This document shows positions 3,904 through 10,217 of a stretch of 10,217 nt of DNA, piece after piece. Every line of letters starts with the position of its first letter. The first letter of the stretch is position 1. The position numbers were made by a program, and so were the translations under genes. This stretch comes from Paludibacter sp. (lineage in GTDB: Bacteria > Bacteroidota > Bacteroidia > Bacteroidales > Paludibacteraceae). Under the pieces are notes generated by a model. That model searched no databases. It had not been told where the DNA came from and worked only from the letters and a program-made list of their open reading frames with translations. The stretch lies in assembly GCA_028748945.1 (NCBI GenBank), contig JAQTOL010000076.1:1-10217 (forward strand), written 5' to 3'.

Positions 3904-4641
3904 TCATTTTTTAAAAATCCAATCTCTCAATTTATATTTGTTCTGCTGTATAAATTGGATTTTTTCTAACTCAGCTTCTGATAGAAAAGTAACAGTTTCC
4001 AGCTTGTATAACCTTAGAATTACTCCCGTAAAATTAACAATAAAGTCATTAATATCAGTTGCAGGAAGATTTTGTTCTCGCAGATAATTTCGGATATTCT
4101 TTACGGGGCTGGGAACTGATGGGATAGCTTTTATTATAGTTTTGCTTTGTACCGTAGATAGAGCCTTTTGCAGCCTATACAAATCGGTATCGTATAGTAA
4201 TGTTCCATGATGAAGTTCCCTTTTTTTTCCTATATGTGATGCTGTTCCGGAGATTTTAAAACCACCGGGTAACCAAAGGTCTTTCCGTTTACCAACCTCA
4301 ACTTCAATTCCTAAAGCGTTCAAAACCTCAACAATGGGCTTTAGAAAATTCGGATTTAAGGAAGATCTTTCGTTCGTTTTATTGGAAATAAAGCAAAAAT
4401 TTAAATTTCCAAAATCGTGATAAACACTGCCGCCACCTGACATACGCCTGACAATTTGAATATTGTTTTCTCTGCAATAATCCAGATTTACTTCGTTTTG
4501 GATGGCCTGATTGCAACCGATGATTACACTCGGTTCATTCACATAGAAAAGCAAAATTTCTTCCGGGCTCTCAGAAAATATATATTCCTCTGTTGCCAGA
4601 TTGAAAGTTGCTGAAGTGGATGTGGATTGGATGATTTGCAT
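3904..4641 (-). CDS. lplA: Lipoate-protein ligase A family, catalytic domain only
   Basis: The 245-residue product belongs to the biotin/lipoyl ligase fold. It carries RRMSGGGSVYHDFGN (65-79), the lipoate/ATP-binding loop; KISGTAS (129-135), whose lysine K129 corresponds to the lipoyl-adenylate-binding lysine; and HHGTLLYD (144-151). Ligases of this type activate free lipoate as lipoyl-AMP and attach it to E2 and GcvH domains of 2-oxoacid dehydrogenases and the glycine cleavage system. E. coli LplA is about 337 residues. This protein stops soon after NKYKLRDWIFKK, where the catalytic domain ends, so the C-terminal accessory domain is missing, as in archaeal two-part LplA/LplB enzymes. It could instead transfer octanoyl or lipoyl groups (LipM/LipL-like). 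The ATG at 4641 lies only two bases from the repeat element at 4644, so its leader is made of that element. It is probably not functionally linked to the sugar genes upstream. Confidence 0.85.
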   Translation of the reverse strand: MQIIQSTSTSATFNLATEEYIFSESPEEILLFYVNEPSVIIGCNQAIQNEVNLDYCRENNIQIVRRMSGGGSVYHDFGNLNFCFISNKTNERSSLNPNFLKPIVEVLNALGIEVEVGKRKDLWLPGGFKISGTASHIGKKRELHHGTLLYDTDLYRLQKALSTVQSKTIIKAIPSVPSPVKNIRNYLREQNLPATDINDFIVNFTGVILRLYKLETVTFLSEAELEKIQFIQQNKYKLRDWIFKK

Positions 4642-4643
4642 AA

Positions 4644-4805
4644 CCCCTAACCCCTAAAGGGGAACTATGATACTTTTGTTTATTAAAAACATTGATTTAT
4701 TTGTTGCAAAAAATACGAAAAGATAAAGAGGAATTATGAAATTAAACTTCCATAATTCCCCTTTAGGATTATAATTCTTTAGCTCCCCTTTAGGGGGTTG
4801 GGGGG
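4644..4805. repeat. MITE-like palindromic element, copy 1
   Basis: The left end (4644-4664) is CCCCTAACCCCTAAAGGGGAA. The right end (4783-4805) is its imperfect inverted counterpart, with CCCCTTTAGGGGG and further G runs. Inside is a hairpin, GGAATTATG (4730-4738) and CATAATTCC (4751-4759) around a 12-base loop, followed by an extra CCCCTTTAGG (4758-4767). The end, the internal hairpin and the ACTTTYGT stretch after the left end are all shared with copy 2 at 9982-10135, so this is a repeated element, not chance palindromy. It fills almost the whole gap between the tandem aldolase gene and lplA. It has no ORF. It contains TACTTTTG (4671-4678, plus), a -7-like sequence of unknown significance. 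It could also act as an mRNA-stabilising or attenuating hairpin. Confidence 0.8.
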
Positions 4806-6105: not shown

Positions 6106-6120
6106 TTTATATAGATTATA

Positions 6121-6150
6121 GAACAAAGAGTCAAGAACAAAGACTCTTTG
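6121..6150. repeat. 7-base repeat array with perfect 9-bp hairpin
   Basis: The plus strand reads GAACAAA, GAGTCAA, GAACAAA, GACTCTTTG: three 7-base GARYCAA-like units, then an inverted end. CAAAGAGTC (6124-6132) and GACTCTTTG (6142-6150) form a perfect 9-bp stem around 9 bases. It occupies most of the 52-base gap between the dehydrogenase stop and the aldolase ATG. No T run follows the stem on the transcribed strand, so it is unlikely to be a strong terminator. It is related to the arrays around the four-helix gene. Confidence 0.65.
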
Positions 6151-6157
6151 TTTCTGT

Positions 6158-7438
6158 TTAATTCGCTAGTTTATCCGCATTGGAAAGCAAATAAGCTTCA
6201 GCTTCAACGCTCCAGAGTCCTTTATTTTTATCGCAAATTGTTGCCAGTTGTTTGAAAACCGGATTTGTTTCACCCAATTTTCCGAATTCGGAAATTGGAG
6301 TCAACGGTAAAGTAATATGCGTATAAATAAGTTTTTTACCTCCCGGAATTTCCGGTAAATGATTGGTCGCCTCAATTACAGCATTCAATCCTCCGATATG
6401 TGTCACCAATCCGGCAGGATCAAGTCCAATGCTCATCATTTCAAGAGCTTCCACCATATCGTCTGTGTTCCCGCCACTGGTCCCGACCACATGTGTGTAT
6501 GCATAATGTACATTGTAAAAGTTAAACATGGCACTGAATTTCGGATCGCCCGGACCGGCAAAGAAATTCATACAACCATCAAATGCAAGTATCGCATCGC
6601 CCTGTTCGACAACAGGTTTTACAGGGGCAAATACAAATACATCATCGTAACCGTTTCCACCACTGATAGCTTTAAGCTCTTCAACAGGATTTTCCATACT
6701 TCCTGTATTTACATATCGTAAATCGATTCCACGTGATGCAGCAAATTCTACGCTGTAAAAAGTGGCTGCACGGTCGAGGCGGGTTTGATCCACGTCGGTT
6801 ACCACACAAAGCGAAGGACGTCGATCTTCGCGGAGAAGAACGTAATTTATTGCAGCCAGTCCCATTGGACCAACTCCTGCCAGTATCGCCATTTTTCCAC
6901 CATTTACAATTTCCATGTTGTGAACGTAACTTCCGGGATTGGTGTGATAATTGGCATGCATAGCACCGATGACGCACGAAAGTGGTTCTGCCAGTGAAGC
7001 AGGATAAAATCCTTCTCCCTTGTAAGCAAGCAGACAATTTTTTTCCATCACTTCATTTGGAATAATTACGTAAGTGGCATCACCACCAATGTACCGGTAA
7101 CTATAACCCGGAGCACTTAGTATACCCACCGGACCATCTTCGTAATACAAGGCCGGTTGAATGGAAAATTTATCACCGGCTTTGAATTTACTTGCCCATT
7201 TTGATCCGACTTCCACCAGTTCTCCGGCGAATTCGTGCCCGATGATGATGGGTTTTTCAGCCACATCATTTGGGATGCGCTTGTGGTCGGTTCCCTGGCT
7301 TGATGCTTTGTACGAGGACATGCATAACGAGTCGGAAACTACTTTGGCTAATATTTCATTGTCTTTAATCTGCGGCAATTCGAACTCTTCTAACCGAAGG
7401 TCTTTTTTGCCATATAAACGGATTGCTTTTGTTTTCAT
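6158..7438 (-). CDS. SorE-like zinc-dependent sugar (phosphate) dehydrogenase
   Basis: The 426-residue product is a medium-chain dehydrogenase. Its GroES-like N-terminal domain carries the catalytic zinc ligands: C39 in SDSLCMSS, H68-E69 in GHEFAG, and E151 in AEPLSC. The Rossmann domain begins AILAGVGPMGLAA (184-196, GxGxxG) and has VVTDVD at the end of the second strand, which favours NAD(H). The four-cysteine structural zinc loop is absent, and the protein is longer than a typical 350-residue alcohol dehydrogenase. The size and the SLCMSSYKA start resemble L-sorbose 1-phosphate reductase (SorE) and its Bacteroidota relatives. It probably interconverts a ketose or ketose phosphate with a polyol (phosphate). 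The ATG at 7438 is preferred; an in-frame TTG at 7453 lies in a repeat array. The four-helix gene with its repeats separates it from the upstream aldolase fusion, and the tandem aldolase follows downstream. Substrate specificity is inferred. Confidence 0.85.
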   Translation of the reverse strand: MKTKAIRLYGKKDLRLEEFELPQIKDNEILAKVVSDSLCMSSYKASSQGTDHKRIPNDVAEKPIIIGHEFAGELVEVGSKWASKFKAGDKFSIQPALYYEDGPVGILSAPGYSYRYIGGDATYVIIPNEVMEKNCLLAYKGEGFYPASLAEPLSCVIGAMHANYHTNPGSYVHNMEIVNGGKMAILAGVGPMGLAAINYVLLREDRRPSLCVVTDVDQTRLDRAATFYSVEFAASRGIDLRYVNTGSMENPVEELKAISGGNGYDDVFVFAPVKPVVEQGDAILAFDGCMNFFAGPGDPKFSAMFNFYNVHYAYTHVVGTSGGNTDDMVEALEMMSIGLDPAGLVTHIGGLNAVIEATNHLPEIPGGKKLIYTHITLPLTPISEFGKLGETNPVFKQLATICDKNKGLWSVEAEAYLLSNADKLAN

Positions 7439-7444
7439 TATTTT

Positions 7445-7477
7445 GAGAGTCAAGAGTCAAGAACCAAGAATCAAGAC
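7445..7477 (+). repeat. 7-base repeat array, left copy
   Basis: After GA come four units, GAGTCAA, GAGTCAA, GAACCAA, GAATCAA, and then GAC. It begins 6 bases from the dehydrogenase start codon and so forms that gene's mRNA leader. It is inverted relative to the copies at 7569-7594 and 7952-7984. Confidence 0.8.
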
Positions 7478-7568
7478 GGTGTTGTTTGATATTGGATCCT
7501 GCTCTGGTTAATTGTTTGATTAATTGTATTCTAAATATTGATTTTATACATAAAACTCTGATGAAACC

Positions 7569-7594
7569 TGTCTTGATTCTTGGCTCCTGAGTCT
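7569..7594 (-). repeat. 7-base repeat array, inner copy
   Basis: On the minus strand this reads AGACTCAG GAGCCAA GAATCAA GACA, three diverged units. It overlaps the stop codon of the four-helix gene. With the inverted left copy at 7445-7477 it can form a long imperfect stem (about 21 of 24 positions) around a spacer of roughly 90 AT-rich bases in which I see no other feature. Confidence 0.75.
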
Positions 7595-7943
7595 AATTTA
7601 ATTTATCTTTGAAACCTATTATCATTTTTTGCAGTTCTGCCAGTTTTTCTTGCAACAGATTATATTGTCCCTGCTCAATATACGACAGATTGAGTGAAAC
7701 AAGTAATTCTGTTTCTAATTCAAATGTCGAACCTAGAGAGATTTCAAGAAATCGGGCAAAATCTTTGTTGCTCGATTTTGCTGAACCTTCCGATATATTT
7801 GTAGGGACTGAAACAGCAGCTCTTTGTAACTGAGAAACAAGTCCAAAACGCTCATTACTTGGAAAGGTGTTTGTTACTTTATAAATCTCAGTAACAAAAT
7901 CAACCGATTTAATCCAGACAGATAATTTTTTGAAATTGTGCAT
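7593..7943 (-). CDS. Four-helix-bundle protein (S23/IVP family)
   Basis: The 116-residue product matches the family first known from intervening sequences in 23S rRNA genes. It opens with FKKLSVWIKSVDFVTEIYKVT (residues 4-24), has the FPSNERFGLVSQLQRAAVSVPTNISEG block (27-53, the most conserved family segment), then the helix SNKDFARFLEISLGSTFELETELL (58-81) and a long final helix of E, L, Q and K residues. The fold is a four-helix bundle that forms pentamers and has a basic surface; the same fold occurs in the Avd accessory protein of diversity-generating retroelements. Its cellular role in Bacteroidota is unknown. No reverse transcriptase or rRNA gene is nearby. It interrupts a sugar operon, starts 8 bases from one repeat array (7952-7984), and its stop codon lies within another (7569-7594). 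The gene is complete, not truncated. No Shine-Dalgarno sequence is visible before the ATG. Confidence 0.9.
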   Translation of the reverse strand: MHNFKKLSVWIKSVDFVTEIYKVTNTFPSNERFGLVSQLQRAAVSVPTNISEGSAKSSNKDFARFLEISLGSTFELETELLVSLNLSYIEQGQYNLLQEKLAELQKMIIGFKDKLN

Positions 7944-7951
7944 AATCTCAT

Positions 7952-7984
7952 TGTCTTGATTCTTGACTCTTGGTTCTTGACTCT
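7952..7984 (-). repeat. 7-base repeat array, right copy
   Basis: On the minus strand this reads A GAGTCAA GAACCAA GAGTCAA GAATCAA GACA, four units. It fills the space between the fusion enzyme's stop codon (TAG at 7983-7985, which it overlaps) and the four-helix ATG. It uses the same units as the left copy with the middle two in swapped order. Confidence 0.8.
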
Positions 7985-9971
7985 ACGATAGCATCACCTG
8001 CCCACCGGTAATAGGCAATGCCTGTCCGGTTTCGCCGCATTGTTCCATCAGATACAAAGCTCCTTTGGTAACATCTTCGGGTGAACATCCTTTTTGCAGA
8101 GGAACCTGTGCCAGATAAAACGCTTTCACGTCGTCTATAGTTTTAGCACCCGGTACCTTTCCTGCATTTAAATACTGTACAAAGAGTCCGTTATCCGGAT
8201 CACTCCACAGCGGACCTTCGTAAAAATTTCCGGGACAAATGGAGTTTACCTTGATACGGAATGGTGCCAATTCCAATGCAAAAGATTGGGTCAGACCCAC
8301 TCCTCCAAATTTCCCACCGGCATAGGCAAAGTTCGCTTTACTGCCACGCAATCCCGATTTGGAATTAATCTGAATGATATCGGCATAATACTGAGGTGCA
8401 AATTTTGTTTGCAACTTCATCACCTTGCTGACTACTTTTGTACAATAAAAATATGCATTGTAGTTTATTTTCGTTACGAAGTCAAAGTTTTCGGGAGTCA
8501 TATCGTCAAGTCCTCCTGCGCGAAGTACGCCTGCATTGCTGATAAAGGCATCGATAGCCCCAAAGTTGCAAATGGTTTCGTGAACCAGGTTCTCAATACT
8601 CGGAATTTCGCTTACGTTGGTTTTTACAAAGATGGCACGATTACTTTTTGTCAGTGTATTGAAATGTTCCACCGTTGCCACACCGACTGTTTCATTCATA
8701 TCGGCCACTACGATATTGGCACCTTCCAGTAATAAACATCTTGCTATTCCTTCGCCAAATCCCTGGGCAGCTCCGGTTACGATGATGGTTTTATTTTCGG
8801 CACGACCTTTTGAAGCTCCTGCTGCCACACTGCGACGGTAGTTTTCCACTTCCCAGTTGTCAATAAAATCGATTTGTGTTTGTGTCATTGGATGTGGACC
8901 ACCAAACGATTCGGACAAATAGGCTATCTTCATAGCATCTTCAAAAACATCCAACAGAATATCACATTGGGCTGCATTAGCACCTGCAGCAACCAGGCCG
9001 ATACCTTTTATCAGGAAAATCTTTGGCTGATAACCAAACTTAGTGGTAAATGCAGGAATTTGTTTCGCTGCTTCGGCCAACACAGCTTCCGGTTCTTCGT
9101 CGTTAAGGAAAATATAATTCGATTTACAATAGACAATAGCATCAGGCGTAAATGGTTTGGCAATTTTTGCCTGATTTTCTTCACTGTCGCAGAAGTATTT
9201 TATCAGTTCGTTTTTGCGGACTTTCAATGTTTTCAAACCATCTTTTGAAAGCATCATGCGAATACCCGGAAGGATTTGTTCCGTACAACTACAAGTAGCG
9301 CGAGGTTCTGCAAGCTTAGTGAGGGGGTGACTCAAAGTCAACTTCTCACTGTTAGCTACGGCTTTATCAAGCGTATCCAGAATTTTGGTATAAAGCACTT
9401 TGATTTCTTCAATGCTGTTTGCACCGACAAAAATACCATGGTTTTGCAACCAGATAACGGCAGGTTCAGCTCCATCTTCGGCGCGAAAAGCTTTGATAGC
9501 ATCTTCCACTTTTTTGAACAATACGTAACCCGGATCGGTGTATTCGATATACAATGCCTTTGCTCCGAACAATTTTTTCAAATCACTTTCTGCATTAACG
9601 GCACACATCAACCCGTTGACAGTGGTTGGGTGTAAATGCACCACAAAGGCAAAGTCAATCACGTTATGCATGGATGTTTCCACCGACGGACGTTTGCCTT
9701 TGCTCAATGTTGCAGCTGCCAGATCGTTTTTCACTTCTTCTTCACGTTCGGCTGCATTGCTGCTGTATATTTTGTCGGACATGAGGTTCAGTTTGGATCT
9801 GTCCAGCACAGCAAAACCGTCTTCGGTAATGGTTGCCAGTGAAGAACCGCTGGCTTTCACCCAGATTTTTTCTTCGTTTTTGTACGAGGTGTTTCCTCCG
9901 CCTGCAATCACGAAACGGCTGTCGCGGCCGTAGAATTGCGATATTGTTATTAAATCATCAAGTTCTTTCAT
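7983..9971 (-). CDS. Bifunctional class II aldolase / short-chain dehydrogenase
   Basis: The 662-residue fusion has an N-terminal class II aldolase domain (about 1-240) with the GGGNTS loop (24-29), the catalytic-type Glu in PSVETSMH (E99), and zinc ligands in VVHLHP (H112, H114) and QNHG (H178). A linker domain (about 240-385) follows. The C-terminal short-chain dehydrogenase domain (about 390-662) has TGAAQGFGEG (399-408), VVAD with an Asp favouring NAD (D424), SNAG (478-481), and a catalytic triad of S537, Y550 and K554 (YAGGK). Relatives include RhaEW/YuxG proteins, in which rhamnulose 1-phosphate is cleaved to DHAP and L-lactaldehyde and the aldehyde is oxidised to lactate. The length and domain order fit. 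All catalytic residues are present, so both halves should be active. The ATG at 9971 is close to repeat copy 2. Rhamnose itself is inference; fucose-type or other deoxyketose phosphates are possible. Confidence 0.9.
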   Translation of the reverse strand: MKELDDLITISQFYGRDSRFVIAGGGNTSYKNEEKIWVKASGSSLATITEDGFAVLDRSKLNLMSDKIYSSNAAEREEEVKNDLAAATLSKGKRPSVETSMHNVIDFAFVVHLHPTTVNGLMCAVNAESDLKKLFGAKALYIEYTDPGYVLFKKVEDAIKAFRAEDGAEPAVIWLQNHGIFVGANSIEEIKVLYTKILDTLDKAVANSEKLTLSHPLTKLAEPRATCSCTEQILPGIRMMLSKDGLKTLKVRKNELIKYFCDSEENQAKIAKPFTPDAIVYCKSNYIFLNDEEPEAVLAEAAKQIPAFTTKFGYQPKIFLIKGIGLVAAGANAAQCDILLDVFEDAMKIAYLSESFGGPHPMTQTQIDFIDNWEVENYRRSVAAGASKGRAENKTIIVTGAAQGFGEGIARCLLLEGANIVVADMNETVGVATVEHFNTLTKSNRAIFVKTNVSEIPSIENLVHETICNFGAIDAFISNAGVLRAGGLDDMTPENFDFVTKINYNAYFYCTKVVSKVMKLQTKFAPQYYADIIQINSKSGLRGSKANFAYAGGKFGGVGLTQSFALELAPFRIKVNSICPGNFYEGPLWSDPDNGLFVQYLNAGKVPGAKTIDDVKAFYLAQVPLQKGCSPEDVTKGALYLMEQCGETGQALPITGGQVMLS

Positions 9972-9981
9972 AATAATACGA

Positions 9982-10135
9982 CCCCTAGCCCCTAAAGGGG
10001 AACTAAATTACTTTCGTCTCTGAAATTAATTCTTCAAGGGAATTTTGATTAATGCTAAATTGAATTTCTATTATTAAACTACAAAAAAGGAATTATGAAT
10101 ATGAACTTGCATAATTCCCCTTTAGGGGCTAGGGG
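9982..10135. repeat. MITE-like palindromic element, copy 2
   Basis: The ends at 9982-10002 and 10115-10135 are perfect 21-bp inverted repeats built from CCCCTAG, CCCCTAAAGGGG and AA. An internal hairpin, GGAATTATG (10089-10097) and CATAATTCC (10110-10118) with a 12-base loop, overlaps the right end. The hairpin and about 38 surrounding bases match copy 1 at roughly 34 positions, and the stretch after the left end (GGGGAACTA then ACTTTYGT) matches too. The middle 65-80 bases differ between copies. It fills the gap between the fusion enzyme's ATG and the preceding gene, whose stop codon it supplies. It encodes no protein. It could be a non-autonomous transposable element or a REP-like mRNA element. 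Confidence 0.85.
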
Positions 10136-10217
10136 TTTATTAATTCGTCTCCCAATTTAATAAACTCCTCCCTTTTGCTTCTATCGGCTTGCCCATTTGC
10201 ATCCACATACCCTCGCA
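10129..10217 (-). CDS. C-terminal tail of an unidentified protein, cut by the window edge
   Basis: One minus-strand frame entering from the right edge is open for about 28 codons (RGYVDANGQADRSKREEF, then IKLGDELINP) before a TAG. Its charged, helical composition looks like real protein, unlike the frame that stops after 11 codons and better than the other that stays open to TAA near 10140. The stop and last codons (AAC CCC TAG) fall in the inverted end of repeat copy 2, so the last residues may have been set by the insertion. Position directly upstream of the aldolase-dehydrogenase fusion suggests a sugar isomerase or kinase of the same operon, but the fragment is too short for me to identify. 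Confidence 0.55.
   Translation of the reverse strand, partial: RGYVDANGQADRSKREEFIKLGDELINP

Follow-up and report, generated by a model that had tools for sequence, protein, structure and literature searches.

The described systems that come closest to the block studied here are the S23-coding intervening sequences (IVSs) of 23S rRNA, in which an S23 ORF lies within an insertion of about 400–550 nt whose complementary ends fold it out (PMC4990558). There S23 is described as a protein without known function, and the IVS of Coxiella burnetii as having complementary ends, being cut by RNase III in vitro and being of unclear function and origin; the occurrence of IVSs is scattered and they are transcribed together with their host RNA (PMC4990558). 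A second system is the TAACTGA heptamer studied by MacGregor. Its direct repeats stand close to start codons, five Bacteroidetes being among the organisms that have such repeats, and their mobility was considered (PMC4679880). The accessible text of that paper deals with direct repeats and contains neither inverted arms round an ORF nor a mention of S23 or 'intervening'. The homology of the S23 family (PF05635) with Avd, the partner of the reverse transcriptase in diversity-generating retroelements (DGRs), is supported by PMC10053308, and the GxxExxY protein, to which we return below, is mentioned once in the available part of PMC8934634, beside a CRISPR-like reverse transcriptase.

In this work we have analysed a stretch of 10,217 nt (the window), contig C76 of a Paludibacter genome assembled in 540 contigs. 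The block of interest fills a gap between two genes which we call RhaD and ADH, the former name being our assumption from the order of the domains. Along the transcript we read the RhaD stop codon, a sense array, S23, a second sense array, a spacer, an antisense array, 7 nt and the ATG of ADH. The features are as follows.

7983..9971, minus strand: RhaD-type aldolase/short-chain dehydrogenase, the upstream gene of the gap (PF00596 and PF00106; orthologues found in relatives)
7954..7984, minus strand: left arm, a GARYCAA array in transcript sense, overlapping the RhaD stop codon by 2 nt (tandem-repeat and array scans)
7593..7943, minus strand: S23/IVP four-helix-bundle ORF of 116 aa (PF05635, 128 bits; TIGR02436, 121 bits)
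7571..7594, minus strand: inner array in the orientation of the left arm, starting at the S23 stop codon (array scan and sequence)
7477..7570, no strand: spacer from the inner array to the right arm (sequence)
7446..7476, plus strand: right arm, a GARYCAA array in antisense, partner of the left arm in the predicted fold
7439..7445, minus strand: A-rich tail running up to the ADH start codon
6158..7438, minus strand: alcohol dehydrogenase (ADH), the downstream gene of the gap, with its ATG at 7438 (PF00107/PF08240; orthologues in relatives)
6120..6155, no strand: mini hairpin lacking an ORF, with repeats of the GARYCAA type, between ADH and the FucA-like gene (AGAACAAAGAGTC / GACTCTTTGTTTCT; hairpin judged by eye)
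from 4807, minus strand: FucA-like aldolase
3904..4641, minus strand: lipoate ligase-type gene

The original prediction that a complete S23/IVP-type ORF lies between GARYCAA arrays is true, and its scheme of two array orientations stands as well, with the bounds of the three arrays refined to those given above; it does not mention the mini hairpin at 6120–6155. The outer arrays, when one is inverted, are identical at 27 of 31 positions. Tandem-repeat scores of the arrays are 41–55. Over the whole gap the inverted match has a score of 44, while none of 200 shuffles exceeded 29. The genome contains 61 copies of a 17-base array pattern and 16 of the same pattern written backwards. The predicted fold of the block has an energy of -142.3 kcal/mol (z -4.41) with the outer arms paired, and the IVS-like architecture that had been proposed for this protein-coding operon, an S23 ORF enclosed by complementary termini, is supported. 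The inner array may be the left boundary of another element that has no ORF. Mini-hairpins like it also follow S23 in another locus, L011 (1846–2060), where hairpins of the same array type stand in series after the S23 stop, as if ORF-less copies were nested.

The block shares with the S23-coding IVSs the ORF, the complementary ends that would fold it out and a scattered occurrence, and its transcription together with the host RNA would be a further likeness. Unlike the IVSs, such cassettes lie between the stop and start codons of protein-coding operons and end in tandem arrays, mostly of 7-base units. Location in a 23S rRNA gene was rejected: the block lies between the RhaD and ADH genes, the window gave no Rfam match, and six 23S motifs had no match in the cassette loci examined. 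The arrays resemble the TAACTGA repeats in being tandem heptamers, intergenic and often directly upstream of start codons; the unit here is GARYCAA, and the tandem TAACTGA unit TAACTGATAACTGA was absent from every locus examined. We recognised no earlier account of S23 cassettes in operon gaps in the open-licence literature of PubMed Central.

The protein belongs to the S23/IVP family, its scores lying above the cut-offs of PF05635 (33.8 bits) and TIGR02436 (24 bits), and structures of relatives have been solved (2gsc, 2rld). Judged from the sequences, it is under purifying selection, with Ka/Ks of 0.06–0.155 in 15 pairs, five of which include a broken copy and many of which have Ks near saturation. 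Some copies are broken: that on contig C62 of the window's genome (G000) has two stops and that of G027 is split over two frames. S23 is a four-helix bundle distantly related to Avd; the Avd models stayed below their cut-offs (bAvd 23.3 against 40 bits, DivGenRetAVD 29.3 against 80 bits) and, unlike the situation in a DGR, the reverse transcriptase model RVT_1 had no match in G000, a genome 85% complete, so we rejected the idea that S23 is the accessory protein of a DGR. A defence function was likewise set aside, as PADLOC gave no match for S23, nor for one GxxExxY protein.

Is the ORF always present at this site? Of 40 genomes searched for RhaD, among them that of the window, ten have a full-length RhaD followed by ADH; G007, whose RhaD match is partial and carries a stop, and G002, where the contig ends, are outside this count. 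S23 lies in the gap in three of the ten (G000, G019, G023) and is absent from seven (G015, G004, G011, G005, G009, G001, G014). The original prediction, which would have been contradicted by an ORF always found at this site, is on this point supported by the alleles without S23. None of the seven gaps without S23 is bare: other repeat types stand near the stop and the start, namely GAACCACAATAGACACATAG in two, GGTAAGCAGTAAGC in two and ACCCCTAACCCCTAAAGGGG in three. In eight of the ten gaps the two halves match in inverted orientation beyond all 200 shuffles, and the match is borderline in G001 (reached by 1 of 200 shuffles) and G023 (7 of 200). Two more gaps filled by S23, in G024 (L010) and in Proteiniphilum sp. 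X52 (L256), were found via S23 and stand outside the ten. In this gap the S23 protein of the window stands no further from that of Proteiniphilum sp. X52 (72% identity) than from those of congeners (66–70%), although its RhaD is 79% identical to that of X52, as against 87–90% to congeners, which counts in favour of a mobile unit.

To survey S23 ORFs elsewhere we aligned the left flank locally to the reverse-complemented right flank and took a score of 28 as the threshold for arms. In related genomes 62 of 82 S23 ORFs reached it, compared to none of 65 control ORFs; this set includes the window, and the G027 copy, which is broken, enters it as four rows, from two fragments in two loci. Without ORFs shorter than 80 aa and the double locus the figure is 60 of 76. 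Among 80 named loci, mostly from Bacteroidota and the top-ranking 80 among at least 572 relatives, 48 of 81 S23 ORFs had arms, against 8 of 151 controls, and in another control set 4 of 58 ORFs did. Below the threshold were 20 of the 82 ORFs from related genomes and 33 of the 81 from these best 80 loci. A period of 7 was found in 33 of 56 rated arms. The link between arrays and S23 which the original prediction drew therefore stands when one starts from the ORFs, but much less so from the arrays of the window's own genome: the array pattern matches 19 contigs, of which 18 carry a GARYCAA array, and two of these (C62 and C76) carry S23, while three other S23 ORFs of this genome (L003–L005) have no GARYCAA array nearby. 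The arms are not always of the heptamer kind, since S23 in L215 and L216 has long arms of GTGCTTCGCAC / GGGCTTCGCC-like units, and in L210 (929–1461) a 73-aa S23 ORF lies between TAACTGT-type heptamer arms, near the published TAACTGA repeats.

Armed S23 insertions nearly always lie in sense and take up the gap between the stop of one gene and the start of the next. The median distance from the stop to the left arm is 3 and 6 nt in the two sets, and that from the right arm to the downstream start 10 and 9 nt. S23 has the strand of both neighbours in 93 of 97 armed cases (52/54 and 41/43). Adjacent control genes are co-directional in 127 of 162 pairs, from which about 0.61 is expected for both neighbours (p 3e-15; genes called as simple longest ORFs). 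In relatives an A-rich tail, TCTAAWAATCTAAA, stops 1–6 nt ahead of the ATG. Among 48 genomes of the genus, 11 carry the right end CTTKRYTCTAAWAATCTAAA, at 12 places that represent four kinds of gap, six of the places being at mutB. At all 11 places where an ORF was callable it stops 1–6 nt ahead of the ATG of a gene on the same strand, and at the twelfth an ATG follows near the contig end.

S23 and its arms are a recurring unit, of which near relatives stand in unrelated gaps with similar arms. We compared 101 armed, non-identical S23 elements in 4863 pairs taken from different gaps and called arms alike at a score of at least 0.8. Like arms were found in 58% of the 89 pairs whose S23 proteins are at least 60% identical, 13% of 592 pairs at 50–60%, 3% of 1681 at 40–50% and fewer than 1% of the 2501 pairs below 40%. 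The rank correlation of arm likeness with S23 identity (rho 0.20) was reached by none of 500 permutations, which indicates that protein and arms travel together between gaps.

We therefore consider it likely that the block is a small, sense-only mobile intercistronic cassette, the mRNA counterpart of the 23S rRNA intervening sequences, with arms that pair in the transcript. Its order is stop codon, left array, S23 ORF, right array, A-rich tail and start codon. The cassette would be transcribed from the promoter of the host operon, its arms would pair in the mRNA with S23 looped out, and the upstream stop and the downstream start would come close together at the foot of the stem. This closeness would allow the insertion to be tolerated and S23 to be made. 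By analogy with rRNA, RNase III may cleave at the arms, and the expression of the two flanking enzymes might be separated, as the original prediction proposed. Differences between the arms, however, show no excess of G-U wobbles over A-C on the transcript strand (85 against 73, p 0.38), so RNA pairing is not demonstrated as a selected property. S23 itself probably serves the element, either by binding or protecting its RNA or by aiding its movement.

Gaps that hold S23 in one genome are empty in another or contain a different ORF that carries repeats of its own. Most of the closest relatives of S23 sit before mutB, and in L007 the gene before mutB is a methylmalonyl-CoA mutase subunit. We examined 40 of 43 mutB-like matches, from 39 genomes. 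The upstream gene was mutA in 30 loci and another gene in nine, which we take to be a CPBP-type membrane protease, and it was cut off in L150. The gap held S23 in ten loci (with stops in G000:C62, in two frames in G027 and without the usual start in G013), a GxxExxY ORF in 11, ORF6N in three and repeats without an ORF in five, and in the remaining 11 it was empty or short. Another S23 subfamily, whose arms are of GTTACRA or GTAAACGAG, lies between a gene that resembles sdhA and an sdhB-like gene with Fer2/Fer4 domains. Of 45 matches 31 were examined there: eight hold S23, six hold CCCC-type repeats without an ORF, 16 are empty (2–27 nt) and one is cut by a contig end. The ORF-less repeats failed the inverted-match test in nine of nine cases, three of the five at mutB being tested, and the six CCCC-type repeats, none of which rose above its shuffles, were accordingly rejected as true inverted arms. 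Around these gaps we made several minor observations. L358, an sdhA–sdhB gap of G007, is almost empty but retains a stretch that resembles a right arm and may be the footprint of a loss. In the mutA–mutB gaps L154, L158 and L161, which contain ORF6N, an S23-type right end is present in L154 and L161 and a shorter stretch in L158, and in L161 a GTTATCACAATTTGTGATAAC palindrome stands ahead of the ORF6N ORF with a near copy within it. Upstream of mutB in L165 and L167, about 220 nt carry several short array types in a row with no ORF, which resembles layered insertions.

How did these gaps come to differ? Within the genus the S23 N-termini are specific to the site, M(T/N)(S/T)HKDL at sdhA–sdhB and MHNF at mutB, which also fits old insertions plus losses. 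A single clade for the mutB-site S23 proteins was not rejected by a tree test (AU p 0.105), so independent entries at that site are not proven. Orthologous arms at mutB are more alike left to left and right to right than left to right, for S23 and GxxExxY equally, and much of the inheritance there is therefore vertical. Together, the tree and the arms point to a turnover in which insertions are gained, lost and replaced on the time scale of species. Concerted evolution of the arms is supported neither by the mutB comparison nor at sdhA–sdhB, where the mean is 42.3 within elements and, between elements, 35.6 for left with left and 44.5 for right with right.

More questions are raised by the way in which such a cassette might move. 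In agreement with the original prediction of a small unit without its own transposase, the block contains none. Perhaps, then, a DNA transposase acts in trans on the terminal inverted repeats, as on a MITE. MITEs and REP elements are small and intergenic and have inverted repeats and ORF-less derivatives, as the cassettes do; unlike them, the cassette has a conserved ORF that is not a transposase, a sense bias and arms that differ from one S23 clade to another. Insertion at the level of DNA alone would not be expected to give a nearly complete sense bias, unless antisense copies were selected away. Nor did we see a target-site duplication: empty gaps are present, but their flanks have diverged, and joint and duplication are unreadable because the genomes compared belong to different species. 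We regard transposition in trans as unlikely.

Alternatively, the excised RNA of the cassette could re-enter transcripts and be copied back into DNA, which would explain why insertion is sense-only in mRNAs and in rRNA, and the distant likeness of S23 to Avd, below the cut-offs as given above, would suit a protein that works beside a reverse transcriptase. Yet the need for a host promoter explains the sense bias as well, and RVT_1, although present in 20 of 48 genomes of the genus, has no match in the other 28, among them the window's genome, nor in near-complete, S23-bearing ones such as G016, G014, G024 and G021. The cassette can be present in a genome where no reverse transcriptase is detectable, and the enzyme was rejected as a resident partner. 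Re-entry through RNA is in our opinion quite unlikely for the block.

Could S23 and its arrays instead be a host regulatory module, tuning how the flanking enzymes are translated or how fast their mRNA decays, with the hairpin kept by selection? The predicted stems are strong (in the mutA–mutB copy z is -5.79, and the inner part of the left arm pairs with the right arm), S23 is under purifying selection as far as Ka/Ks tells, and the RhaD–ADH gaps keep an inverted match, clear in eight of ten and borderline in G001 and G023, with four repeat types. A host module is, however, at odds with the seven RhaD gaps that have no S23, the 16 of 31 empty sdhA–sdhB gaps and the 11 of 40 empty or short mutB gaps, with the other ORFs that occupy the same place and with the broken copies in G000:C62 and G027, and we give it little credence.

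Arrays without S23 are the commoner kind in the window's genome. Solo sense arrays stand 1–7 nt after a stop codon on C6, C15, C207, C256, C363 and C408, and solo antisense arrays 11–39 nt before a start on C2, C6, C119, C139, C171 and C207; several thus hold the same side as in full elements. Six array contigs stand outside this pattern or allow no assignment: on C5, C117, C279 and C450 the array overlaps a long reading frame, on C121 it is at the contig end and on C202 in a divergent gap. This abundance, and the position of heptamers mostly just upstream of start codons in MacGregor's paper (PMC4679880), might suggest free-standing intergenic repeats that act near start codons, with S23 merely among them, a reading that is very improbable given that inverted arms around S23 far exceed the controls, that the arm sequence goes with the S23 clade across gaps and that several solo arrays are true to their side.

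Under the preferred reading, that of a mobile cassette between operon genes, many intergenic heptamer arrays would be accounted for, and so would the 'four helix bundle' and GxxExxY genes inside unrelated operons, inserted genes of a sort that can mislead operon-based prediction of function. The large set of S23 cassettes, with its empty and filled sites and protein-specific arms, also makes the function and origin of S23 IVSs testable.

An earlier reading had omitted that GxxExxY, DUF559 and ORF6N ORFs use the same kind of gap. Arms scoring at least 28 surround 21 of 33 GxxExxY ORFs, with both neighbours co-directional in all 20 rated cases, and 12 of 19 short DUF559 ORFs, of which the upstream neighbour is co-directional in 11 of 11 and the downstream one in 5 of 9; neither count includes controls. 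It may be, and we put this forward tentatively and as a whole, that a guild of sense-only intercistronic parasites lives on host promoters in Bacteroidota and beyond, in which three or more Pfam families (S23, DUF559 and GxxExxY, a PDDEXK_3 protein, perhaps also ORF6N) have arrived convergently at a common plan: each brings repeat arms of its own, often with its own stop codon on the left and its own translation-start region on the right, is inserted between the stop and start codons of operon genes and can replace the others there. The 23S rRNA intervening sequences would then be a branch that settled in rRNA, and the S23 branch might insert into RNA and not into DNA.

Two further repeats of the window deserve mention. 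Repeats of the CCCCTAAAGGGG type lie at 4641–4794, in the interval that separates the lipoate ligase-type gene from the FucA-like one. Directly upstream of RhaD lies an inverted pair of the ACCCCTAGCCCCTAAAGGGGAA type (9981–10009 and 10113–10137) in which no ORF was seen, and elsewhere this repeat type flanks several DUF559 ORFs.
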